Below, piece after piece: positions 7,131-33,507 of a stretch of 38,914 nt of DNA. The notes under the pieces were generated by a model. That model made no database searches. It saw only the letters and a program-made list of their open reading frames with translations, and was not told the DNA's origin. The stretch is from an uncultured Flavobacteriaceae bacterium. GTDB lineage: Bacteria > Bacteroidota > Bacteroidia > Flavobacteriales > Flavobacteriaceae. The DNA lies in NCBI GenBank assembly GCA_905479435.1, contig CAJQMN010000050.1, forward strand, positions 1-38,914. The letters are read 5' to 3'. Numbering within the stretch: position 1 is the stretch's first letter; every line of letters begins with the position of its first letter. Made by a program: the position numbers and the translations under genes.

Positions 7131-7772
7131 TTAACACACCCTGCTAATGGTAAGCCCGTCTCTTATCGGCAATAAAACGGTTTCAACCCTACTATCAGTA
7201 TTTAACAATGTGTTGTATTCTAGAAGGGCTTTAGTATCTTGATCTTTGGGGTCTAATTTCTCCACAACTTTTCCACTCCATAAAACATTATCAGATAAAA
7301 TAACCCCTCCCTTATTCATTTTATCAATAATTAAATGAAAATAATTGCTATAATTAGATTTATCAGCATCAATAAAAACGAAATCAAATTTTTTATTTAA
7401 AGTAGGGATAATTTCTAATGCAGGACCTACATGTTGATAAATTTTACTTCGATATCCAGATTTTTCAAAATACTTATTTTGTAAATCCACTAACTCTTCA
7501 TTTTTATCTATAGTGTCAATACTTCCATCATCGGATAAGCCTTCTGCAATACAAATTGCTGAATATCCTGTATAGGTGCCAATTTCTAGACTATTTTTTG
7601 GTTGTACTAGCTTAGAAATCATTGAAAGAACACGGCCTTGAAAGGCACCACTTAACATTCTTGGATTGATTATTTTTTGCCAGGTCTCTTTAGTTAACTC
7701 TTGTAATATTAACGGCTCTATTTGTGAATGATTAACTGAATAATCATCTATTTTTTCCGGTAAAAAATTCAT
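7131..7772 (-). CDS. SAM-dependent O-methyltransferase, CCoAOMT-like
   Basis: A 213-residue class I methyltransferase of the O-methyltransferase_3 (caffeoyl-CoA/catechol OMT-like) family. The SAM loop L-E-I-G-T-Y-T-G-Y-S-A is at about residues 67-77. The acidic ribose-binding residue is in I-D-T-I-D-K-N-E, and the metal-binding F-I-D-A-D-K-S-N-Y and S-D-N-V-L-W-S-G motifs follow. Family members use a divalent cation to methylate hydroxyls of small aromatic or other metabolites; the substrate here is unknown. It is a single gene on the minus strand with its own promoter box at 7800-7807. Confidence 0.9.
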   Translation of the reverse strand: MNFLPEKIDDYSVNHSQIEPLILQELTKETWQKIINPRMLSGAFQGRVLSMISKLVQPKNSLEIGTYTGYSAICIAEGLSDDGSIDTIDKNEELVDLQNKYFEKSGYRSKIYQHVGPALEIIPTLNKKFDFVFIDADKSNYSNYFHLIIDKMNKGGVILSDNVLWSGKVVEKLDPKDQDTKALLEYNTLLNTDSRVETVLLPIRDGLTISRVC

Positions 7773-11318: not shown

Positions 11319-11334
11319 TGTTCCACGAGGAACA
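11319..11334. promoter_or_regulatory. parS-like site 2 (degenerate)
   Basis: The 16-mer TGTTCCACGAGGAACA differs by one base from the perfect palindrome TGTTCCACGTGGAACA, a known parS variant, and matches 13 of 16 bases of the TGTTTCACGTGAAACA consensus. It fills the gap between mnmG and the methyltransferase gene. A second, better site lies on the other side of mnmG. Confidence 0.5.
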
Positions 11335-11353
11335 TTTGATTTTTTAAAAAAAA

Positions 11354-13228
11354 CTACCGCCCCATATAAACCAATAAAACCGAAATATCGCTTGGCGAAA
11401 CTCCACTTATTCTGCTAGCTTGTGAAATTGTTGTTGGTTGAATCTTACTTAGCTTTTCTTTCGCTTCATGAGACAAGGAGTTTACTTTGCCATAATTAAA
11501 AGATTGAGGAATAATGACGTTTTCAAGCTTGTTTAACTTGTCTGCATTAGATTTTTCTTTATCAATATATCCAGAATATTTTAAATGAATTTCTACTTGC
11601 TCTAGAATAGTTTTATCTATATCCTCTTCCAAATAAAAGGCTTGAAGAGCGTCTAGTTCTTGGAAGTCTGTTAATGAGAGTTGTGGGCGTGAGGCAATTT
11701 TATAAAGCTTTACAGACTGGTTAATAAGAGATAAATTCTTTTTCGCTAATATTGGATTAATTTGATCCTGGGTAACGCTAGTTTGTTGTAGTAACTTAAT
11801 TAATTTTGCTGTTTTTTGGATTTTTGAATTTACTTTTTCTAGGCGATCCTTAGAAGCTAAACCAATTTTAAAGCCGAGAGGCGTTAATCTTATATCTGCA
11901 TTATCTTGTCTTAGCAAAGTGCGATATTCTGCCCTAGAGGTAAACATTCTATAAGGCTCTTCTGTTCCCTTGGTTATTAGATCATCTATCAAAACCCCTA
12001 TATAAGCTTCATTCCTCTTTAGAATAAATGGAGCTTTTCCCTGAACTTTAAGTGCTGCATTAACTCCAGCCATAAGGCCTTGGGCAGCAGCCTCCTCATA
12101 ACCGGTTGTACCATTGATTTGACCAGCAAAGAAAAGATTATCAATCAGTTTGGTTTCTAAAGAATGTTTTAATTGTGTTGGAGGAAAATAATCGTATTCG
12201 ATTGCATATCCATATCTAAAAAACTTCACGTTTTCAAATCCTGGAATAAATCGAATTGCCTTATCTTGAATGTCTTCGGGCATAGATGTTGAAAAGCCAT
12301 TAACATAAATTTCAACTGTTGTCCACCCTTCAGGTTCAACAAAAACTTGGTGCCTGTCTTTTGAAGCAAATCTGTCAATTTTATCCTCTATAGAGGGACA
12401 ATATCTGGGTCCTGTAGATTGTATTCGACCATTAAACATAGGAGACCTATCAAAACCATCCCTTAGCACATCATGTACTTTTGAATTTGTGTGAGTTAGA
12501 TAACAAGACCGTTGGGTAACTAAAGGTTTTGTGTCTAAATAAGAAAAAGTTTCCGTGTGTTCGTCCCCTGGCTGCTCTTCCATTTTTGAATAATCTAAAG
12601 ACCTGCCATCTACCCTTGGAGGGGTGCCTGTTTTCATTCTTCCTGATTCAAAACCTTTTTTTACAAGGTCTTCTGTTATACCAGTTGAAGATCCCTCACC
12701 TGCTCTACCTCCACCAAAAGTTTTCTCACCAATATGAATAAGGCCGTTTAAGAAAGTCCCTGCAGTAACAATAACTGACTTAGATTTAATATGAAGACCT
12801 AGTGCTGTTTTGACGCCTACAATTTTGGATCCCTCAAAAAGCAAACCATTAACTGAATCTTGATAAAAGTCAAGATTTGTTGTGTTTTCTAACATGGTTC
12901 TCCAGGTTTCCGCAAACATCATTCTATCAGATTGAGCTCGCGGACTCCACATCGCAGGGCCTTTTGATTTGTTAAGCATTTTAAACTGAATGGCCGTTTT
13001 ATCAGTAACAATTCCACTGTAACCACCAAGAGCATCAATTTCACGAATAATTTGTCCTTTAGCAATACCACCCATGGCAGGGTTACAGCTCATTTGAGCG
13101 ATATTTTGGAGATTCATTGTAATAAGCAAAGTTGATGCGCCCATGTTAGCACTTGCTGCGGCGGCTTCACTACCTGCGTGGCCTCCACCAACTACTATTA
13201 CATCGTATGTTGTATTAAATAAACTCAT
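11354..13228 (-). CDS. mnmG: tRNA U34 carboxymethylaminomethyl-modifying enzyme MnmG/GidA
   Basis: FAD-dependent partner of MnmE. Together they build the (carboxymethyl)aminomethyl group on U34 of tRNAs reading A/G-ending codons. Full length at 624 residues: the FAD-binding V-G-G-G-H-A-G-S-E-A-A is near the N-terminus, followed by the family signatures M-S-C-N-P-A-M-G-G and R-E-I-D-A-L-G-G. Later come P-G-D-E-H-T-E-T-F-S-Y, Q-I-N-G-T-T-G-Y-E-E-A and the MnmE/tRNA-binding C-terminal helical domain. It follows ybeY by 39 bases, and that gap holds a near-perfect parS sequence. mnmE is not in the window. The gene often lies near the replication origin in other bacteria. Confidence 0.98.
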   Translation of the reverse strand: MSLFNTTYDVIVVGGGHAGSEAAAASANMGASTLLITMNLQNIAQMSCNPAMGGIAKGQIIREIDALGGYSGIVTDKTAIQFKMLNKSKGPAMWSPRAQSDRMMFAETWRTMLENTTNLDFYQDSVNGLLFEGSKIVGVKTALGLHIKSKSVIVTAGTFLNGLIHIGEKTFGGGRAGEGSSTGITEDLVKKGFESGRMKTGTPPRVDGRSLDYSKMEEQPGDEHTETFSYLDTKPLVTQRSCYLTHTNSKVHDVLRDGFDRSPMFNGRIQSTGPRYCPSIEDKIDRFASKDRHQVFVEPEGWTTVEIYVNGFSTSMPEDIQDKAIRFIPGFENVKFFRYGYAIEYDYFPPTQLKHSLETKLIDNLFFAGQINGTTGYEEAAAQGLMAGVNAALKVQGKAPFILKRNEAYIGVLIDDLITKGTEEPYRMFTSRAEYRTLLRQDNADIRLTPLGFKIGLASKDRLEKVNSKIQKTAKLIKLLQQTSVTQDQINPILAKKNLSLINQSVKLYKIASRPQLSLTDFQELDALQAFYLEEDIDKTILEQVEIHLKYSGYIDKEKSNADKLNKLENVIIPQSFNYGKVNSLSHEAKEKLSKIQPTTISQASRISGVSPSDISVLLVYMGR

Positions 13229-13231
13229 TGG

Positions 13232-13247
13232 GGTTTCACGTGAAACA
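13232..13247. promoter_or_regulatory. parS-like centromere site 1
   Basis: The 16-mer GGTTTCACGTGAAACA contains the perfect 14-base palindrome GTTTCACGTGAAAC and matches 15 of 16 positions of the widely conserved chromosomal parS consensus TGTTTCACGTGAAACA bound by ParB/Spo0J. It lies in the 39-base gap between ybeY and mnmG, 3 bases upstream of the mnmG start codon. No parA or parB is in the window. Confidence 0.75.
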
Positions 13248-20469: not shown

Positions 20470-20471
20470 AA

Positions 20472-20498
20472 AAACCTAAGTTATACTTAGGTTTTTTT
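20472..20498. terminator. bidirectional Rho-independent terminator
   Basis: The inverted repeat AACCTAAG / CTTAGGTT with a five-base loop (TTATA) is flanked by an A run on the left and a T run on the right. It can therefore end both the + strand SPFH-ybjQ transcript and the convergent minus-strand tatA transcript. Confidence 0.85.
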
Positions 20499-20501
20499 AT
20501 T

Positions 20502-20696
20502 TTATTTCTTTTCTTCTATTTTTTCATCTTCTTTTTTGTCGTCCTTTGAAGCTTTCTTAAACTCTTTTATACCGCCACCAATACCTTTCATGAGTTCTGG
20601 TATTTTCTTTCCTCCAAATAAAAGTAATAATGCCCCAACAATAAGAGCCATAGAAAGAGGGCTTGGCATTCCTAATAAAAAAATAGTTAAAGTCAT
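20502..20696 (-). CDS. tatA: second TatA/E-type twin-arginine translocase component
   Basis: A 64-residue protein with an N-terminal hydrophobic helix ([14 protein letters not shown]), the Tat hinge F-G-G-K-K-I-P-E and an amphipathic helix [13 protein letters not shown] short, highly charged Lys/Asp/Glu tail follows. This is the more canonical TatA length compared with the 94-residue paralogue near 6.8 kb. It has its own promoter box at 20716-20723 and is followed by the shared terminator. Confidence 0.9.
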
Positions 20697-20715
20697 TTAT
20701 TTAAATTTTAATACA

Positions 20716-20723
20716 CAAATATA
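20716..20723 (-). promoter_or_regulatory. -7 promoter box TATATTTG (minus strand)
   Basis: On the minus strand the bases read TATATTTG, a perfect TAnnTTTG match, 19 bases upstream of the tatA start at 20696. Confidence 0.6.
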
Positions 20724-20741
20724 CAAAAACGTTTCAATGAA

Positions 20742-21419
20742 TTAATTCATTTGTTTTATAATTCCTCCTGCCATCTTTTTATTTTTTATAACTTCTGGCT
20801 TTCCTTTATATAAAATTGAGCCACCAAAGCTAACTTTTGCTAATAAAGTTTCACCTGCATTTACCTCAGCTTTTGAACCTGTCCCTGCTTTTACTAAACT
20901 ACTGTTAGAAGTAAAAAGATTATATCCATGGTATACTCCATATAAATCAAGTTCAATATCTTGATTTTTTGAAGTGCCTGTTAGATTTACAACACCCCCA
21001 GTTACTGATTTAACTTTTAGGTGTTTTGTTTTAATTTCTAACTTTATAGAAGCTCCTTCTTGAGCCTTTACCTCTAAATGTGTTTGATTTATTCCTTTTC
21101 CTATTATTTTTGAACCCTCATTTCCATCTATAGTTTGAATATCTTTATTATAAAACAACTTAACATTGACTTTATCACCTGCTAGTAACTCTGGAAATCG
21201 TAAACTAATCTTTAAAACCCCCTCTGTATTCTTAATTTTAATTTTATCTGTTTTATCTCCTGAGATTTCTATTTTACTTTCATTAGATTGAAGCAATTCA
21301 AGGCGTATTCCGTTATAAACTTTAAGTTTATAAAAATCTTCTATTGTTTTTGTGATGGTTTTTTGAGAAAACGAAGAAGTGCTCGTAATTAAAAAAAGTG
21401 TAATTATATAATTTTTCAT
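20742..21419 (-). CDS. head-GIN domain (DUF2807) secreted protein
   Basis: A 225-residue protein with an N-terminal signal peptide (basic M-K-N-Y, then I-I-T-L-F-L-I-T-S). The remainder is a repetitive beta structure of short strands (I-K-I-K-N-T-E-G-V-L-K-I-S, A-S-I-K-L-E-I-K-T-K-H-L-K) matching the putative auto-transporter adhesin head-GIN family, DUF2807. The family is common in Bacteroidota, and its exact role is unknown. The final V-S-F-G-G-S-I-L-Y-K-G-K-P is a typical end of the beta helix. It lies between tatA and rnr on the same strand, with gaps that may allow separate promoters. Confidence 0.85.
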   Translation of the reverse strand: MKNYIITLFLITSTSSFSQKTITKTIEDFYKLKVYNGIRLELLQSNESKIEISGDKTDKIKIKNTEGVLKISLRFPELLAGDKVNVKLFYNKDIQTIDGNEGSKIIGKGINQTHLEVKAQEGASIKLEIKTKHLKVKSVTGGVVNLTGTSKNQDIELDLYGVYHGYNLFTSNSSLVKAGTGSKAEVNAGETLLAKVSFGGSILYKGKPEVIKNKKMAGGIIKQMN

Positions 21420-21493: not shown

Positions 21494-23689
21494 CTATTGC
21501 TCTATAAGAGTAAAATCTAAGTGTTTTCTTTCTAAATCTGTGTGTTTAACTTTTACGGTAACAAAATCTCCTAATTGATATATATGTTTAGTAGATTGAC
21601 CAATAATAGCAAACTGTTTCTCGTCAAAAATATAATAATCACTTTTTATATCTCTTATTCTTACCATACCTTCACATTTATTTGATGTAATTTCCACGTA
21701 AATTCCCCACTCTGTAACACCTGATATAACGCCAGGAAACTCTTCATCTTTATGATCTTGCATATATTTAACTTGCATGTACTTAATAGATTGTCTTTCA
21801 GCTTTAGAAGCTAATTCCTCTTGTTTAGATGAATGTTTACATTTAGTTTCATAATCATCTTGTTTTGGAGATTTTCCTCCTTCTAGATAATACTGTAATA
21901 AACGATGTGTCATAACATCAGGATAACGACGAATTGGAGATGTAAAATGAGAGTAATAATCAAAAGCTAATCCATAATGACCTATATTATTGGTTGTATA
22001 AACAGCCTTACTCATTGTTCTAATTGCTAAAGTTTCAATCATATTTGACTCTGGCTTACCTTGAACATCGTTTAATAATTTATTTAAACTTTCTGTTGTG
22101 CTCTCTCTAGTAAGTGTATTTATTTTATAACCAAAATTGTAAACTATATTTTGTAAAGCAGCAAGTTTTTCAATATCTGGCTCATCATGAACTCTATATA
22201 TAAAAGTTTGGTTGGTTGGTTTATTTTTTTCTTTACCTATAAATTCAGCAACTTTTCTATTTGCTAACAACATAAACTCCTCTATTAACTTATTAGCATC
22301 TTTTGATTCTTTAAAAAATACACCTGTTGGATTAGCATTCTCATCTAAATTAAATTTAACCTCAACTCTATCAAAAGATATTGCCCCTTCTTTCATTCTT
22401 TTTTTTCTGAGAATTTTAGCCAATTTATTTAACTTTAATGTAGCTTCAACTATGGTATCAGGGACGTAATAAGATTCATTTGTAATAGAAATATTTTCAG
22501 GTATAAAATTTTTCTCTGTTTCTATAATAGTTTGTGCTTCTTCATAAGCAAAACGTTTATCAGAATAAGTAACTGTTCTTCCAAACCATTCATTTAAAAT
22601 TTGAGCATTTTCATTGATCTCAAAAACAGCAGAAAAAGTTAATTTTTCTTCATTTGGTCTCAAAGAACAGGCACCATTAGATAAAATTTCGGGTAACATA
22701 GGAACAACTCTATCTACTAGGTATACCGATGTTGCTCTATTATATGCCTCTTTATCTAAAATTGTATTTGGTTGAACATAATAAGAAACATCTGCAATAT
22801 GAATACCTATTTCATAATTTCCATTTTTTAACTTTGTAAAAGATAAAGCGTCATCAAAGTCTTTAGCATCTTTAGGGTCAATTGTAAATGTTAAATCCTG
22901 CCTCATATCTCGTCTTTTAGAAATTTCTTCTTTTGTAATTTCTAAGGATAAGTTACTTGCATCTTTTTCAACTTCATTCTCAAATTTATAAGGTAAACCA
23001 TATTCTAATAAAATAGAGTGTATTTCAGTATTATGATCTCCTGGTTTACCTAAAACTTGTGTTATTTTACCAAAAGGATTTTTTGAATTTTCTGGCCAAT
23101 CGGTTATTTTTACTTGAACTTTATCTCCATGCTCTGCACCATTTACTCTTGCTTTAGAAATAAAAATATCAACATACATTTTTTGATTATCACATAATAC
23201 AAAACCGAAATTTTTACTCATTTGAAGTACACCTACAAAAGATGTTTTGTCCCTTTCTATAATTTCTATAATATCTGCTTCTAATTTATTACTCCTGTTT
23301 CTTTTATATACATATGCTTTTACTGTATCATTTTGTAAACCTTTACCTAGATTATTAGAAGGAATAAAAATATCCTTTTCAAAGTCATCTGAAACAAAGT
23401 AACCATTGCCGTTTGAAGTAATATCTAAAGATCCAATATGATATTTTTTATCAATAATAATTTGATATTTTCCTTTATTAATTTCCTTTATTTTCTTTGT
23501 TTCTTTTAATTCTATTAGCTTTTTGAGTATTTGTGTTTTACCATCTGAATTTGTAATTCCTAGTTTACTAGCGATTTGTTTATAATTATAATATTTAGTG
23601 CTATCATTATTAAATATTTTAAAAATATCTCTTGTTAAATTTTTAATAACACTACCTTTCTTCTTGTAGATTTTTTTCTTTCTACTCAT
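21494..23689 (-). CDS. rnr: ribonuclease R
   Basis: Processive 3'-5' exoribonuclease that degrades structured RNA. The 731 residues run as an N-terminal helix-turn-helix region, cold-shock-like domains (about 80-210), the RNB catalytic domain, and a C-terminal S1 domain. The magnesium ligands are visible as D271, D277, D279 and D280 in D-P-K-D-A-K-D-F-D-D. The S1 domain begins at about G-V-I-S-G-V-T-E-W-G-I. It is shorter than the E. coli enzyme mainly at the termini. The gene is AT-rich compared with genes on either side of the 20.7-26.7 kb block (two hand-counted lines gave 27-28% GC). It is divergent from the lipid kinase gene. Confidence 0.96.
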   Translation of the reverse strand: MSRKKKIYKKKGSVIKNLTRDIFKIFNNDSTKYYNYKQIASKLGITNSDGKTQILKKLIELKETKKIKEINKGKYQIIIDKKYHIGSLDITSNGNGYFVSDDFEKDIFIPSNNLGKGLQNDTVKAYVYKRNRSNKLEADIIEIIERDKTSFVGVLQMSKNFGFVLCDNQKMYVDIFISKARVNGAEHGDKVQVKITDWPENSKNPFGKITQVLGKPGDHNTEIHSILLEYGLPYKFENEVEKDASNLSLEITKEEISKRRDMRQDLTFTIDPKDAKDFDDALSFTKLKNGNYEIGIHIADVSYYVQPNTILDKEAYNRATSVYLVDRVVPMLPEILSNGACSLRPNEEKLTFSAVFEINENAQILNEWFGRTVTYSDKRFAYEEAQTIIETEKNFIPENISITNESYYVPDTIVEATLKLNKLAKILRKKRMKEGAISFDRVEVKFNLDENANPTGVFFKESKDANKLIEEFMLLANRKVAEFIGKEKNKPTNQTFIYRVHDEPDIEKLAALQNIVYNFGYKINTLTRESTTESLNKLLNDVQGKPESNMIETLAIRTMSKAVYTTNNIGHYGLAFDYYSHFTSPIRRYPDVMTHRLLQYYLEGGKSPKQDDYETKCKHSSKQEELASKAERQSIKYMQVKYMQDHKDEEFPGVISGVTEWGIYVEITSNKCEGMVRIRDIKSDYYIFDEKQFAIIGQSTKHIYQLGDFVTVKVKHTDLERKHLDFTLIEQ

Positions 23690-23767: not shown

Positions 23768-24697
23768 ATGCACTTCAATAAGCTTCATTTTACAAAATCT
23801 TGGTTTTTAATTGTAAATCCTTCTGCAGGAAATACTAATTTTAGAAAATCATGGATTTGTATTCAAAGTTTATTAAAAACCAAAGAAATTTTTTTTTCTT
23901 TTGCTTTTACTCAGTATACCAAACATGAACTAGTACTTGTAGATGAAGCTATTAAACAAGGATATAGAAATTTTATTTCTGTAGGCGGAGACGGAACCTT
24001 ACATCATGTGGTAAACGGAATAATGATGCAAAGATATACAAAAACATCTAATATAAAACTAGGTGTGATTCCTTTAGGTACTGGTAATGATTGGATAAGA
24101 ACATATAAGATTCCTAATTCTATAGAAAAAGCTATTAATGTTATTATAAATAATACTGTTATTTTCCAAGATATTGGTTGTATTACTTTAGCTTCTGGTA
24201 AAAAAGAATACTTTAATAATCTAGCAGGTATAGGTTATGATGGGTATGTTGTTAAAAATTTAAAATATTTAAAAAAAATAGGTTCTATCGCATTTTTATT
24301 AAGTGGATTATATAGTTTACTTTCTTATAGGAAAAAGAAATATTCTATCACTATAGGAGATGAAACTTTAAAAGAAGAATGTTTGATGATTATATTTGGT
24401 ATTTGTAAATATTCTGGAGGAGGATTAAGAGTCACAAAATACCCAAACCCAACAGATGGTTTACTAGATATCACAATAGTTAAAAAATTTTCATTTTTTA
24501 ATTTACTTTTTAATCTTCCTAAATTGTATAATGGAAACATTGTACATCATAAAAAAGTAGACAATTATAAAGTAAAAGAATTAAATATTATAAATGATAA
24601 TTCAATTATCGAAGCAGACGGAGAAATTGTAGGAACAGGCTCTTTAAAAGTTCACATCATTCCTAATGCTATTCAATTTTTGATTAATTGTATTTAA
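23768..24697 (+). CDS. diacylglycerol/lipid kinase family protein (YegS/BmrU-like)
   Basis: A 309-residue enzyme predicted to phosphorylate a lipid such as diacylglycerol or a related substrate at the inner membrane face. Signatures are the N-terminal I-V-N-P-S-A-G-N, the nucleotide-binding G-G-D-G-T at 73-77 followed by L-H-H-V-V-N-G, and P-L-G-T-G-N-D-W-I-R. A C-terminal beta domain includes D-G-L-L-D-I-T and A-D-G-E. The length is normal. It is divergent from rnr across 78 bases and followed by the gene-free AT-rich stretch. The lipid substrate cannot be assigned. Confidence 0.92.
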   Translation: MHFNKLHFTKSWFLIVNPSAGNTNFRKSWICIQSLLKTKEIFFSFAFTQYTKHELVLVDEAIKQGYRNFISVGGDGTLHHVVNGIMMQRYTKTSNIKLGVIPLGTGNDWIRTYKIPNSIEKAINVIINNTVIFQDIGCITLASGKKEYFNNLAGIGYDGYVVKNLKYLKKIGSIAFLLSGLYSLLSYRKKKYSITIGDETLKEECLMIIFGICKYSGGGLRVTKYPNPTDGLLDITIVKKFSFFNLLFNLPKLYNGNIVHHKKVDNYKVKELNIINDNSIIEADGEIVGTGSLKVHIIPNAIQFLINCI

Positions 24698-25220
24698 ACT
24701 TTATTAACAATTAATATTATTACCATATTTCTTTATATTAAAAATTTAAAAAACATATTAATTATAATAGCATGTGAATAGTTAATATAGAAAACAACAT
24801 ATTTCTTAGGATTTGTTATTTATTAAAAATAATACACATTTTATTATATATTTTTCCTTTTAAAATAAAGAAAAATACTATTTATTAACACTACTTATAA
24901 ACAACTATAAACATTTTTTTTTAATTAAATAAAAGTTAATAAGTGTAAAAAACAGATGTAAATAATGTTTATAAGAAGTAATTAAAAAATAATAGTTTTT
25001 ATTGTGTATGTGATAAATGAATATGTATTGTAATTAAAAATGGATAAATCAAATCTATTTTTTAAAACTTACCTATACTTTTTAACAATTATAAAAATGA
25101 TGTTAACTAACTAATAAATAAGTAGTTATTAATTAAAATATAAAATTACTTTTTAAACCTGTTGATAACCATATGTATTTGTATTTTTGTTTCTATTAAA
25201 AGCATAAAAACCAACTTATT
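24698..25220. other. gene-free AT-rich stretch; candidate replication origin
   Basis: This 523-base stretch has no credible gene on either strand. A hand count of 24721-25200 gives 71 G/C in 480 bases, about 15%. It holds five copies of TTATNAACA, which is one base from the DnaA box TTATNCACA: 24701-24709 (+), 24882-24890 (+), 24895-24903 (+), 24966-24974 (-) and 25160-25168 (-). Near matches lie at 24905-24913 and 24934-24942. Two other one-mismatch DnaA-box-like words are at 24773-24781 (TGTGAATAG) and 24830-24838 (TAATACACA). The right end contains the rpiB promoter. An origin is the best explanation I can offer but is unproven. Confidence 0.4.
25162..25189 (+). promoter_or_regulatory. rpiB promoter (TTG, 17 bases, TATTTTTG)
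   Basis: A TTG at 25162-25164 and a perfect TAnnTTTG box (TATTTTTG) at 25182-25189 are separated by 17 bases. This is the two-part layout of flavobacterial promoters, 31 bases before the rpiB ATG. The -33 element overlaps one of the TTATNAACA repeats of the neighbouring stretch. Confidence 0.6.
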
Positions 25221-25652
25221 ATGAATATTTCTATAGGGAATGATCATGCTGCTACAGCATATAAATTTGAGATTATTAAATTGTTAGAATCGAAAGGTAT
25301 AGTGGTTAAAAATTATGGTACTGATTTTCACGATAGTGTAGATTATCCAGATTTTGTACATCCGGTAGCAAAAGATGTTGTTTTAAATAAAGCACACTAT
25401 GGAATATTATTATGTGGGAGCGCTAATGGTGTTGCTATGACCGCAAATAAATACAAAGAAGTAAGAGCAGGTTTATGTTGGTCTAAAGAAATTGTGGCCT
25501 TAATTAGACAACATAATAATGCTAATATTTTATGTATCCCAGCAAGATATACATCAATTCCTCAAGCATTAAAAATGGTAGAAACATTTTTAGAAACAGA
25601 TTTTGAAGGAGGAAGACATCAAAATAGGGTTAATAAAATACCAGCTTGTTAA
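25221..25652 (+). CDS. rpiB: ribose-5-phosphate isomerase B
   Basis: Interconverts ribose 5-phosphate and ribulose 5-phosphate in the pentose phosphate pathway. The 143 residues include the N-terminal I-G-N-D-H-A (D8, H9; many homologues have GSDHAG), the catalytic Cys65 in L-L-C-G-S-A-N-G, and H98 in the Q-H-N-N-A-N-I-L segment that binds the sugar phosphate. The length is normal for RpiB. It is preceded by its own promoter and followed, 2 bases after the stop, by the acetyltransferase ATG, so the two are co-transcribed. Confidence 0.95.
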   Translation: MNISIGNDHAATAYKFEIIKLLESKGIVVKNYGTDFHDSVDYPDFVHPVAKDVVLNKAHYGILLCGSANGVAMTANKYKEVRAGLCWSKEIVALIRQHNNANILCIPARYTSIPQALKMVETFLETDFEGGRHQNRVNKIPAC

Positions 25653-30168: not shown

Positions 30169-33100
30169 ATGGTAAACAATTACTTTAAAAAACTGCTAGT
30201 TTTTTCCTTATTATTATCAACTACTTTTAGTATTTCTCAAACTCAAGAGCAAATATTAGAAATTAAAAAAGCTAACAACACCCAAGAATTAAAAAACATT
30301 GAAGAATCTTCAAGGCTAATTCAGGAAGAGGCAAAAGAGAAAGCTTTAGCAATGGCCTCCGTTAAAGGCTGGGAAATAACATATACTAAAGATGGGTCTT
30401 TATATGAATTAATGAAGGTTTCTGAAGACAACAGACCTATTTATTACAAAACCTTTAACCAAAACGCTGCAATTTCAACTAGAGTTAATCACCTTAATAC
30501 TGGAGGTAGTTTAGGTTTAGAACTAGAAGGTCAGAACATGACAGCTCATGTCTGGGATGGTGGATGGGTCTTTACAACGCACCAGGAGTTTGATGGAGCC
30601 GGAGGTGATGATAGGGTTATTATAGGAGATAACGAAAATCAATATAGCGATCATGGAACTCACGTAACGGGTACTATTTTAGCCTCAGGTGTTAATCCTG
30701 AAGCAAAAGGAATGGCGCCTCAAGCAAAAGGGGTATCCTATCGTTGGAGTAATGATATTTCTGAGGGTGCAGCAGCAGCAGCAGACGGAATGCTATTGTC
30801 TAATCACTCTTATGGGTATCCCTTAAGTAATATACAAAATGGTGCAGGTATATATGGTTTTGATGCCAAAGAGTTTGATGCCATCATGTACAACGCACCC
30901 TACTATCTTCAAGTAGTTTCGGCAGGAAACGACGGCTCAAATAATACATCAAACTCAGATCCTTTAGAAGGTAATAATTTATATGACAAGTTAACAGGAA
31001 TGAATACGGCAAAAAATAATTTATCTGTTGCTAATGGTCAAGATGCTGATATCGACGCTGACGGAAACTTAATTTCTATGAATAGAAATAACGGGAGCTC
31101 TGAAGGCCCAACAGATGATTTAAGAGTGAAGCCAGATATTACGGGTAACGGATCGGGCGTTATTTCTCCAGTAGGCGATAGTAGTGGGTACGGAAATTAT
31201 TCAGGAACCTCTATGTCTGGACCAAATGTAATGGGTTCATTATTATTGGTTCAACAACACTATAGCAATGTGAATGGTTCTTTTATGTTTGGCGCAACCC
31301 TAAAGGGTTTAGCTCTTCACACGGCAGATGATATTACACCAGACAACTCTAACTCTTCATCTCAAACACTTGTTGGGCCTGATGCCACTACAGGTTGGGG
31401 TTTATTAAATGTAAAGTTCGCTGTAGAGACCATTGATAAAGTTGGTTTTAGAAGTGTTATTAAAGAAAAAACGTTAGACAACGAAGATACTTTTACCATG
31501 AATGTTAAGTCTGACGGAGAAAACCCATTGGTAGCTTCAATTTCATGGACAGACGTTGCTGGAGAACAAAATAATACAGTTAACGATCCTACTCCTGCAT
31601 TAGTTAACGATTTAGACATTCGAGTTTCACAAGTTATAGATGGTGAAACAACAGAATATTTACCCTGGAAATTAACTTCTGTAAACACGAATGAACAAGG
31701 AGACAATTTAGTTGATCCATTTGAAAAGATAGAGATTACTGATGCTTCAGGTGAGTATATAATTACAGTTTCTCACAAAGGAACTCTAGTAAATGACTCT
31801 CAAAATTACTCATTAATTGTAACAGGAACGCTTTCTGATATTAATTTATCTAGTGTTAACCCTGAGGTTATTCAATGTTCAACATCAGACGCCGAATTTA
31901 ACTTTGATTATACACAGCAAATTCAGACCACAACAACAATAACTGCTAATAATTTACCAACAGGAGCAACAGCAAGTTTTTCACCATCTTCAATAAGCCA
32001 AAATGGTGACGTTGTTATGACTGTATCAAATTTAGAAAGTGTTGCTTCCGGCACCTATGAAATAAGTGTAACAGCAAGTAATGGTGACGAAACACAAACT
32101 AAAAAAGTAGAGTTAAGGGTGGTTCATCCAGATTTTACAGACAATCCGATGAGTTTATCTTCACCTTTAAATGAAGAAGCAGGTGTTTTATTCCCTGAAA
32201 TCGAGTTAGTTTGGAATGAAAATATAAACGCAGAATCGTATACTGTTGAATTATCTGATAATCCATCATTTTCGAATATTATAGCAACCTCTACTCAGAC
32301 CGATATAAAATTTACAGCTACAGGTCTTGAAGAAAATAGTATTTATTATTGGAGAGTAAACCCAATAAATCAATGTGGTTTAGCTATTTCACCTGTAATT
32401 TATAGTTTTCAGACAGCAGGGTCTGAAGATTGTACAAATACATATTCTGCTACAGATTTTGACAATGATCGTTTAGGAGGAGGTACTGATGTTGTAGCTT
32501 CATTACCAATTGAGATTACAGATGATTTAACAATAAGTAGACTAAAAGTAAATGTAGATATTACTCACCCTGCTATTGGAGAACTAGAGGTATTAATTCA
32601 GGAACCAGAAGTATTAGGTGCTAACACCACACTACTTTTAGAAAATGTATGTGAAAATGTAGCAAACGTTACAGGAGCTGTATTTGACGATAATGGAAAT
32701 GATTTGGTGTGTGGAACAGCAGATCCTGCAATTTCAGGCAACATAAAGCCTGCACAAAGCTTAGCTAGTGCTGCAGGAAAAAGCGCCTTAGGAACTTGGT
32801 TGTTAATCGCAAATGATGATACTTTCCAGAATGGAGGAACATTTACAGCAGGAAGTTTAGATGGAGCAACGATAACGGTTTGTACAGCCGAAGCAAACTC
32901 ATCTCTTCCAGAGTTTTCATCCAATCCCGTATCAGTTAGCGCAAACCAAAGTACTGCGTTTACAACTTCTGACATGTTAGCAACCACAGCTTCAGAGACA
33001 GCTTCTCAGCAAGTTTATACTATTGTTACGGCGCCAACTATGGGTGTAATTACTAAAAATGGTTCAGATTTATCTATAGGCGGAACTTTTACGCAAGCTG

Positions 33101-33507
33101 ATGTAGATGCAGGGGTTATTGCATATTCAAACACGCAAACCGTATTATTTTCTGATTCATTTAAGGTAGATATTACCAACTCATTAAATGGTTGGTTACC
33201 AAATCAAGAGGTTAGTATAGAAGCAACCACATTAAGTACAAATTCTTACTCTTTATCTAATGTGTCTATCTATCCAAACCCTTCGAACGGTATAATCAAT
33301 GTTCGCTTTGAGACAACGTCAAACGATATCGTAAAAATAGAATTATTTGATTTACAAGGTAGAAGAGTTTATCGCTCTAATCACACAAGTAATCAATCGT
33401 TATTCGATGAACCAATAGCTACAGGAAAAATAGCCAACGGTATATATGTATTAAATGTGTCACAAGGAAACAAAAGCACAACGAAGAGAATTATCTTTTC
33501 GAAGTAA
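30169..33507 (+). CDS. secreted S8 subtilase with P domain and T9SS sorting domain
   Basis: A 1112-residue exported serine protease. A signal peptide (to about residue 24) and a propeptide-like region to about 105 precede the S8 domain. The catalytic triad is D130 (V-W-D-G-G), H162 (D-H-G-T-H-V) and S348 (G-T-S-M-S-G-P), with oxyanion Asn N254 (S-A-G-N-D-G). Then come beta-rich segments, an FN3-like domain (about 655-750), a proprotein-convertase P domain (about 753-905) and a cadherin/CSPG-like repeat (about 915-1025). The C-terminal type A T9SS sorting domain starts near V-S-I-Y-P-N-P-S-N-G at about 1030. It probably acts at the cell surface or outside, degrading proteins for nutrition. A weak -7 box (TATCTTCG, 7 of 8) is at 30134-30141. 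Confidence 0.95.
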   Translation: MVNNYFKKLLVFSLLLSTTFSISQTQEQILEIKKANNTQELKNIEESSRLIQEEAKEKALAMASVKGWEITYTKDGSLYELMKVSEDNRPIYYKTFNQNAAISTRVNHLNTGGSLGLELEGQNMTAHVWDGGWVFTTHQEFDGAGGDDRVIIGDNENQYSDHGTHVTGTILASGVNPEAKGMAPQAKGVSYRWSNDISEGAAAAADGMLLSNHSYGYPLSNIQNGAGIYGFDAKEFDAIMYNAPYYLQVVSAGNDGSNNTSNSDPLEGNNLYDKLTGMNTAKNNLSVANGQDADIDADGNLISMNRNNGSSEGPTDDLRVKPDITGNGSGVISPVGDSSGYGNYSGTSMSGPNVMGSLLLVQQHYSNVNGSFMFGATLKGLALHTADDITPDNSNSSSQTLVGPDATTGWGLLNVKFAVETIDKVGFRSVIKEKTLDNEDTFTMNVKSDGENPLVASISWTDVAGEQNNTVNDPTPALVNDLDIRVSQVIDGETTEYLPWKLTSVNTNEQGDNLVDPFEKIEITDASGEYIITVSHKGTLVNDSQNYSLIVTGTLSDINLSSVNPEVIQCSTSDAEFNFDYTQQIQTTTTITANNLPTGATASFSPSSISQNGDVVMTVSNLESVASGTYEISVTASNGDETQTKKVELRVVHPDFTDNPMSLSSPLNEEAGVLFPEIELVWNENINAESYTVELSDNPSFSNIIATSTQTDIKFTATGLEENSIYYWRVNPINQCGLAISPVIYSFQTAGSEDCTNTYSATDFDNDRLGGGTDVVASLPIEITDDLTISRLKVNVDITHPAIGELEVLIQEPEVLGANTTLLLENVCENVANVTGAVFDDNGNDLVCGTADPAISGNIKPAQSLASAAGKSALGTWLLIANDDTFQNGGTFTAGSLDGATITVCTAEANSSLPEFSSNPVSVSANQSTAFTTSDMLATTASETASQQVYTIVTAPTMGVITKNGSDLSIGGTFTQADVDAGVIAYSNTQTVLFSDSFKVDITNSLNGWLPNQEVSIEATTLSTNSYSLSNVSIYPNPSNGIINVRFETTSNDIVKIELFDLQGRRVYRSNHTSNQSLFDEPIATGKIANGIYVLNVSQGNKSTTKRIIFSK

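Follow-up and report, generated by a model that had tools for sequence, protein, structure and literature searches.

The gap between rnr and rpiB and its DnaA-type boxes

The analyzed stretch, hereafter the window, comprises 38,914 nucleotides of an uncultured Flavobacteriaceae bacterium and belongs, as contig 50, to an assembly of 200 contigs that is 72% complete. It contains a gene-free gap of 523 bases (24698-25220) with the GC content of 14.9%, compared with 31.7% in the whole window and 24.3% in other intergenic DNA. An earlier note had singled out this gap as a candidate oriC, describing it as the only gap above 300 bases in the window, with about 15% GC; both values hold, the next longest gap between called genes being 272 bases (20470-20741). 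At the right end of the window, 200 bases are left after 38104, and a reading frame from 38305 runs off the edge. The names of neighboring genes (rnr, YegS-type lipid kinase, rpiB, GNAT acetyltransferase, recA, and mnmG) were checked against NCBIfam and Pfam. A gene for a DUF2807 putative autotransporter adhesin (20742-21419) adjoins rnr and is its neighbor in many relatives too, while the region 30169-33507 encodes a large subtilase, likely a type IX secretion cargo, whose C-terminal sorting domain is of the Por-secretion type. The features of the locus are listed below; R1 is a model derived from 56 aligned copies of the core module described in a later section.

11319-11334, no strand: TGTTCCACGAGGAACA, a degenerate parS-type site that flanks mnmG, with three mismatches to the consensus
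11354-13228, minus strand: mnmG (gidA), 12 kb from the gap
13232-13247, no strand: GGTTTCACGTGAAACA, the second parS-type site flanking mnmG, with a single mismatch
21494-23689, minus strand: rnr (ribonuclease R), a flank of the conserved gap, divergent, beyond the lipid-kinase gene
23768-24697, plus strand: YegS/diacylglycerol-kinase-type lipid kinase gene, which separates rnr from the gap in the window and in several near relatives
24693-24789, plus strand: putative core origin module, R1 match (31.7 bits, E 2.3e-7; the window is among the 56 training sequences)
24698-25220, no strand: probable oriC region, the gene-free gap between the lipid-kinase gene and rpiB; homologous rnr-rpiB gap in 51/53 single-contig relatives
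24701-24709, plus strand: core DnaA-type box 1, TTATTAACA; TTATCCACA at this place in 12/56 aligned copies
24710-24772, no strand: putative DNA unwinding element, the 63 bases (90% AT) that separate the facing boxes
24773-24781, minus strand: core DnaA-type box 2, CTATTCACA, facing box 1, 72 bp start to start
24882-24890, plus strand: DnaA-type box TTATTAACA; TTATNAACA word in 7/8 rows of the near alignment, the window among them
24895-24903, plus strand: DnaA-type box TTATAAACA, 13 bp after the 24882 box, less conserved
24905-24913, plus strand: near copy of a DnaA-type box, CTATAAACA, with a T tract after it
24966-24974, minus strand: DnaA-type box TTATAAACA; TTATNAACA word in 8/8 rows of the near alignment
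25160-25168, minus strand: DnaA-type box TTATCAACA, about 50 bp before rpiB; TTATNAACA word in 7/8 rows of the near alignment
25221-25652, plus strand: rpiB (ribose 5-phosphate isomerase B family), the other flank of the conserved gap

The gap carries five exact TTATNAACA words, starting at 24701, 24882, and 24895 on the plus strand and at 24966 and 25160 on the minus strand. The earlier note had set these five words against an expectation of roughly 0.2; when we shuffled the gap 20,000 times with its dinucleotides preserved, the mean was 0.32, and no shuffle had as many as five. The near copies that it mentioned are also present (CTATTCACA at 24773-24781 on the minus strand and CTATAAACA at 24905-24913 on the plus strand), so that the core pair is followed, up to rpiB, by four exact boxes and one near box. 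In the whole window, there are 11 TTATNAACA words, compared with a shuffle mean of 5.4, and 3/100 dinucleotide shuffles reached 11. TGTTGATAA indeed occurs inside genes at 7432 and 14063, as had been held against an origin; single boxes in genes are expected by chance, which answers this objection. The gap has no canonical TTATNCACA, which the whole window has once, at 31908; for this reason we did not take it to be the working box here.

In the near alignment (eight rows, the window and seven relatives), the boxes form conserved islands. Box 1 is a TTATNAACA word in most rows; in the sub-group of the window it reads TTATTAACA, and other relatives often have TTATCCACA. According to computed nearest-neighbor stability, no 60-bp stretch in the 38.9-kb window is less stable than the one that begins at 24709, between the core boxes. 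We also looked for DnaA-trios: no run of three TAG was found beside any box in the gap, and relaxed patterns gave only AAGAAGTAA at 24973 and AAGTAG at 24891.

Gene order, GC skew, and parS-type sites in relatives

As the genome of the window is split into 200 contigs, is 72% complete, and has no match to dnaA, we moved the tests of origin function to its relatives. Of 298 sampled genomes of the family, 293 have an rpiB match; except for the genome of the window, all were at least 95% complete. The 53 genomes listed as one contig were taken for synteny. In 51 of them, rnr and rpiB are divergent and less than 6 kb apart, the median gap of all 53 being 872 bases. The exceptions are G017, where the two genes are 37 kb apart, and G196, where the pair is split by 44 kb and is no longer divergent. 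In this expanded locus of G017 (G017:C1:954640-992021), the rpiB match has one in-frame TAA, and only a weak module is found, beside rnr. One locus titled uncultured Rhodobacteraceae (L079) has the flavobacterial order of rnr, module, and rpiB, which means that its title is probably wrong.

The earlier note had counted it against an origin that dnaA is not adjacent. However, dnaA is far from the site in all 53 single-contig relatives, where it is present 0.13-0.48 of the chromosome away (median 0.35), and this objection thus loses its force. Of the 53 records, 20 begin at dnaA. The G019 record is cut open inside the gap, with rnr starting at base 555 and rpiB at the record end, and its depositors seem to have put base 1 at the origin. 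An origin at dnaA itself was rejected, as seven stretches flanking dnaA have at most one box each, and the fits of GC skew in three genomes (see below) put the origin away from dnaA. The fitted terminus interval of G052 even includes dnaA.

GC skew was calculated at third codon positions in 20-kb stretches and averaged across the genes on the two strands, so that transcription effects cancel out; the chromosome halves were divided at the observed terminus, and stretches spanning the gap were left out. In G106, which belongs to the same genus as the window, the skew is positive in 17/18 stretches on one side and negative in 18/20 on the other side. In G019, the sign is as expected in 10/10 stretches on each of the two sides, and in G052, 7/8 stretches up to 0.44 of the circle and 9/9 from 0.61 agree, with two weakly positive stretches between. 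In all three genomes the skew crosses from negative to positive near the homologous gap, and the reverse change occurs about half a chromosome away. For G019 and G052, the sampled interval to which a change-point fit assigns the origin is the one that includes the gap. The G106 fit is flat, its best interval lying 24-74 kb from the gap, with nearly equal scores beside it. In G515, also of the same genus, only 6/10 stretches agree with an origin at the gap.

The skew test had been named in advance, with a minimum elsewhere or a maximum at this point speaking against an origin. Run on the relatives, it gives a minimum at the gap in G019 and G052 and no farther than about 75 kb from it in G106, and no maximum, at a resolution of only about 20-75 kb. 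The window's own flanks do not flip: the skew is -0.014 on the left (25 kb) and -0.108 on the right (14 kb), where plus is expected. The earlier note had also objected that gene strand bias does not switch at the gap; this carries little weight, since these genomes show only a weak, uneven bias of this kind.

The parS consensus is the 16-mer TGTTTCACGTGAAACA. The parS-like sites noted earlier about 12 kb away are there, at 13232-13247 with one mismatch and at 11319-11334 with three; one more match with three mismatches lies inside rnr at 21615. The two sites flanking mnmG in the window (11319-13247) are 1.9 kb apart, and many relatives show pairs with this spacing (often TGTTCCACGTGGAACA). The exact parS core GTTTCACGTGAAAC is present in 7 of 54 genomes, once in each, and never farther than about 45 kb from rnr and rpiB. 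A search allowing for at most two mismatches to the 16-mer yielded at least 75 sites in at least 25 genomes. Among the matches listed, all 39 sites of the GTTYCACGTGRAAC form are within 60 kb of rpiB, in 24 of 25 genomes (G100 has none), and 32 of the 36 other near-parS matches are farther than 60 kb from it.

These sites bear on the possibility that the origin is at mnmG, 12 kb off in the window, and the gap is something else. Two publications on flavobacterial genomes point in this direction, both with Ori-Finder 2022. In Algorimicrobium, mnmG was named as the origin (PMC12843772, in the available text). In Mariniflexile, the available text of PMC11278836 names the region next to mnmG as oriC, and the figure legend there labels mnmG as ter. 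In the window, the parS-type sites that flank mnmG would also fit such a placement; however, model R1 has no match at mnmG in the window, and the skew argues against it. We used five further genomes in which parS-type sites lie 32-54 kb from the gap, taking these sites, many of them paired at 1.9 kb, as the marker of mnmG, as in the window. Between the gap and parS, the skew is plus in 9/10 stretches, and beyond parS in 4/5. On the rpiB side, it is below zero next to the gap in 5/5 genomes (slightly in four) and at 40-60 kb in 5/5; at 20-40 kb, three genomes are negative, one is zero, and one is slightly positive. This suggests that the sign changes at the gap or up to about 40 kb from it on the rpiB side, and not at parS. 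We consider an origin at mnmG very unlikely.

The core module of two facing boxes

To describe the boxes in the family, we took the last 1000 bases before rpiB in 52 gaps (51 relatives and the window; G017 and G196 were left out). TTATNAACA occurs 123 times in 49 of them and is absent from three, the shuffle mean being 11.7 and the maximum 20. For TTATNCACA, there are 26 occurrences in 24 gaps, compared with a shuffle mean of 3.3 and a maximum of 8, and 28 of the 52 gaps have none. The commonest spacing of boxes is that of a facing pair, a plus box followed by a minus box, at 72 bp in 12 gaps and at 71 bp in 10; with random placement, at most five gaps shared any one spacing and orientation. 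By strict words, a facing pair at 71-73 bp is found in 25/52 gaps, including the window.

Alignment of these pairs yields a module of about 100 bases, comprised of box 1, a TA-rich and then T-rich/A-rich segment, TGATG-TTATTATAG, and box 2. In 56 copies, the AT content between the facing boxes is 81-92%. The most frequent variants of box 1 are TTATCCACA (12 copies), TTATCAACA (12), and TTATTAACA (9). Positions 7 and 8 are invariant in both boxes of all 56 copies, and position 6 is A in 38 and C in 18 copies of box 1, and A in 50 and C in 6 copies of box 2. As position 6 is A or C in all copies of both boxes, the box is better written TTATNMACA.

A profile trained on the modules of 23 relatives, with the window excluded, scores the window's core at 15.7-17.1 bits (E 0.01-0.03). 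It matches 52/52 gaps at E≤1 and 50 at E≤1e-3, 23 of these gaps having supplied the training copies, and it has no match in the other sampled stretches of G106, G019, and G052. Model R1, derived from all 56 copies, was run on 54 genomes, of which 49 had given training copies; run over this many genomes, it uses stricter filters and loses weak matches. The best R1 match is at this locus in 54/54 genomes; in 52 of them it falls within the gap, in G196 next to rpiB, and in G017 next to rnr. In the window's genome, it is the match at 24693-24789. Among the matches listed, the best on-locus match has at least 30 bits in all genomes but G017, and off-locus matches have at most 20.1 bits; the match in G017 (E 0.019) is not above noise. 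In G067, G148, G200, and some others, R1 also matches the opposite strand at the place of the module, which means that the module is partly self-complementary.

In 246 sampled genomes of the order, R1 matches 178 at E≤0.1, many of those outside the family at noise level. Family genomes among the matches listed, to which 48 genomes without a match do not belong, all have E≤1.7e-4 except for G475 (E 0.09). We checked the surroundings of 40 loci. All 21 family loci from non-training genomes have the module beside rnr and/or rpiB; since they were chosen by having a match, this is a test of place and not of presence. Family f4 has no R1 match better than 7e-4, and family f15, with genomes of 0.3-0.6 Mb, none better than 1.3e-3. 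We take f15 to be Blattabacterium-like. The weak matches would then fit the report, in the available text, that a Blattabacterium genome has neither dnaA nor DnaA boxes (PMC2768785). In other orders of the class, 8/197 sampled genomes match weakly, at E from 4e-7 to 4e-4 (G689, G650, G518, G546, G584, G699, G673, and G612), and the module may be older than the order.

Among 80 named loci, 74 hold at least 1 kb upstream of rpiB. The profile without the window matches 66 of these 74 within 1.2 kb upstream of rpiB, 63 of them at E≤1e-3; the eight misses are L034, L037, L040, L044, L048 (with a match 1.7 kb upstream), L060, L063, and L107. With R1, for which seven of the 80 loci were in the training set, 71/74 match at E≤0.1, including L034 (E 0.007) and L040 (E 0.003); L060 has no R1 match, and L037 and L063 match neither the profile nor R1. 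As L034, L040, L044, and L060 are among the nearest relatives of the window in gene order, the sub-group of the window has the most worn cores; the module seems to be eroding or changing there.

Titration or reactivation of DnaA is another possible role of a box cluster, exemplified by datA and DARS of E. coli, and the gap could be such a site near the origin and not the origin itself. Several boxes with conserved spacing, and a skew that resolves positions only to about 20-75 kb, agree with this reading. However, the best whole-genome match of the module is here, at the skew minimum, and the least stable DNA of the window sits between the boxes, so we give a titrating or reactivating site a very small chance.

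The gap could also be an upstream regulatory region or an RNA leader of rpiB or of a neighboring gene. In other families, 10/11 loci picked by a match have rpiB about 350-570 bp downstream of the core in the same orientation, with no rnr match in the examined piece of any of the 11, so that the core stays with rpiB where rnr is not adjacent. Still, and against a leader, the core is kept without rpiB: in 5 of 298 genomes there is no rpiB match, and all five keep the module beside rnr (L261, L335-L338). In L336-L338, rnr, the module, and then the GNAT gene that follows rpiB in the window remain in order. RNAalifold gave no consensus pair in 56 sequences, and Rfam had no match in the window, so that an RNA element was rejected. 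Promoter-like words are not above shuffles (6 vs. 9.3), and no terminator-like sites were found in 24500-25400. Moreover, a leader leaves the skew and the parS sites unexplained, and we find this reading hardly credible.

The chance that the gap is a terminus or an accidental AT-rich gap is practically negligible: the window's own flanks lack the minus-to-plus flip, but the relatives flip in this direction here and in the opposite one about half a chromosome away, and the conservation across the family rules out an accidental gap.

The proposed origin and its comparison with known systems

The gap at 24698-25220 is very probably the chromosomal oriC of this flavobacterium. The proposal of the earlier note is thus upheld by the skew of the relatives, the rnr-rpiB synteny, the excess of boxes, the conserved facing pair, and the company of parS-type sites. 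As for other DnaA-dependent origins, the locus is single and conserved across relatives. The box cluster exceeds chance if the box is TTATNMACA, the strict TTATNCACA giving none in the gap of the window; an AT-rich element, easily unwound by computed stability, lies by the boxes; and a replication-linked skew minimum is seen in the homologous gaps of relatives, although the short flanks of the window disagree.

In the mechanism that we propose, DnaA would bind the TTATNMACA boxes, and the weaker TTATNAACA boxes would take up ATP-DnaA, building an oligomer. Melting would occur in the AT segment that the facing boxes enclose, the helicase would be loaded there, and two forks would depart in opposite directions, while ParB on the parS sites would segregate the new origins.

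More tentatively, and less likely than not, the gap may represent an undescribed origin architecture in Flavobacteriaceae and partly in other families of the order. Here, DnaA face to face at a fixed distance of 71-73 bp would clamp the melting segment between two boxes, and not beside an array, with the box shifted to TTATNAACA and the recognition helix of DnaA reading DHAT instead of DHTT. The recognition motif is of the standard kind in 8/8 flavobacterial DnaA proteins, which read GxRDHATVLHACK (L113, L114, L248, and L250-L254), compared with GGRDHTTVIHA in 8btg, which we take to be DnaA of B. subtilis. This position presumably touches the box, and it is possible that the DHAT residue is matched to A at box position 6. 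If this architecture is real, opening would be symmetrical from two boxes, and for most draft genomes of the family the module alone would suffice to locate the origin; it would also correct the published mnmG placements.

In the sea, flavobacteria are abundant degraders of algal polymers. Estimates of their growth rates from metagenomes, which use origin-to-terminus coverage, depend on knowing where the origin is. With a marker that finds the origin in one contig from sequence alone, records starting at dnaA and the two published mnmG origins could be corrected. The fixed spacing of the facing boxes also provides a testable model of origin opening by DnaA outside the lineages of E. coli and B. 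subtilis.

Origins of the E. coli and B. subtilis type have clusters of 9-mer boxes in both orientations and an AT-rich segment, and they are intergenic, at the skew minimum, with parS nearby. The gap is similar to these DnaA-dependent origins in its two-way box cluster, the AT-rich segment by the boxes, the intergenic site, the skew minimum, and the parS-type sites. By contrast, it lies beside neither dnaA (in 53/53 single-contig relatives) nor mnmG, which in the E. coli arrangement is linked to oriC and in the window is 12 kb off; its boxes are mostly TTATNAACA; and its core consists of facing boxes 71-73 bp apart around the AT segment. Similarly to the basal unwinding system with DnaA-trios of the B. 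subtilis type, as presented in the available text of PMC10225481, a box is next to a stretch expected to melt, here with no three-TAG run.

For Flavobacteriales, origins have been predicted by Ori-Finder in Elizabethkingia (PMC8994065), Mariniflexile (PMC11278836), and Algorimicrobium (PMC12843772), those of Elizabethkingia and Mariniflexile away from dnaA. The available text of these three papers makes no mention of rpiB, rnr, or the facing-box module, and we recognized no description of an rnr-rpiB origin location or of the module among the open-licence papers listed. Two of the predictions name mnmG, whereas we see the sign change at the rnr-rpiB gap, in genomes other than those two.

The closest likeness in the box itself is to mollicute origins. 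According to the available text of the respective papers, TTATTAACA or TT(T/A)TCAACA are proposed DnaA boxes in M. hominis and relatives (PMC2751442) and in phytoplasmas (PMC3322544), the same variant with A at position 6 in AT-rich genomes. As TTATTAACA and TTATCAACA have thus already been proposed in mollicutes, the box variant is not unprecedented. Unlike in M. hominis, where the boxes are upstream of dnaA (PMC2751442), the boxes here are remote from dnaA and arranged as a conserved facing pair.
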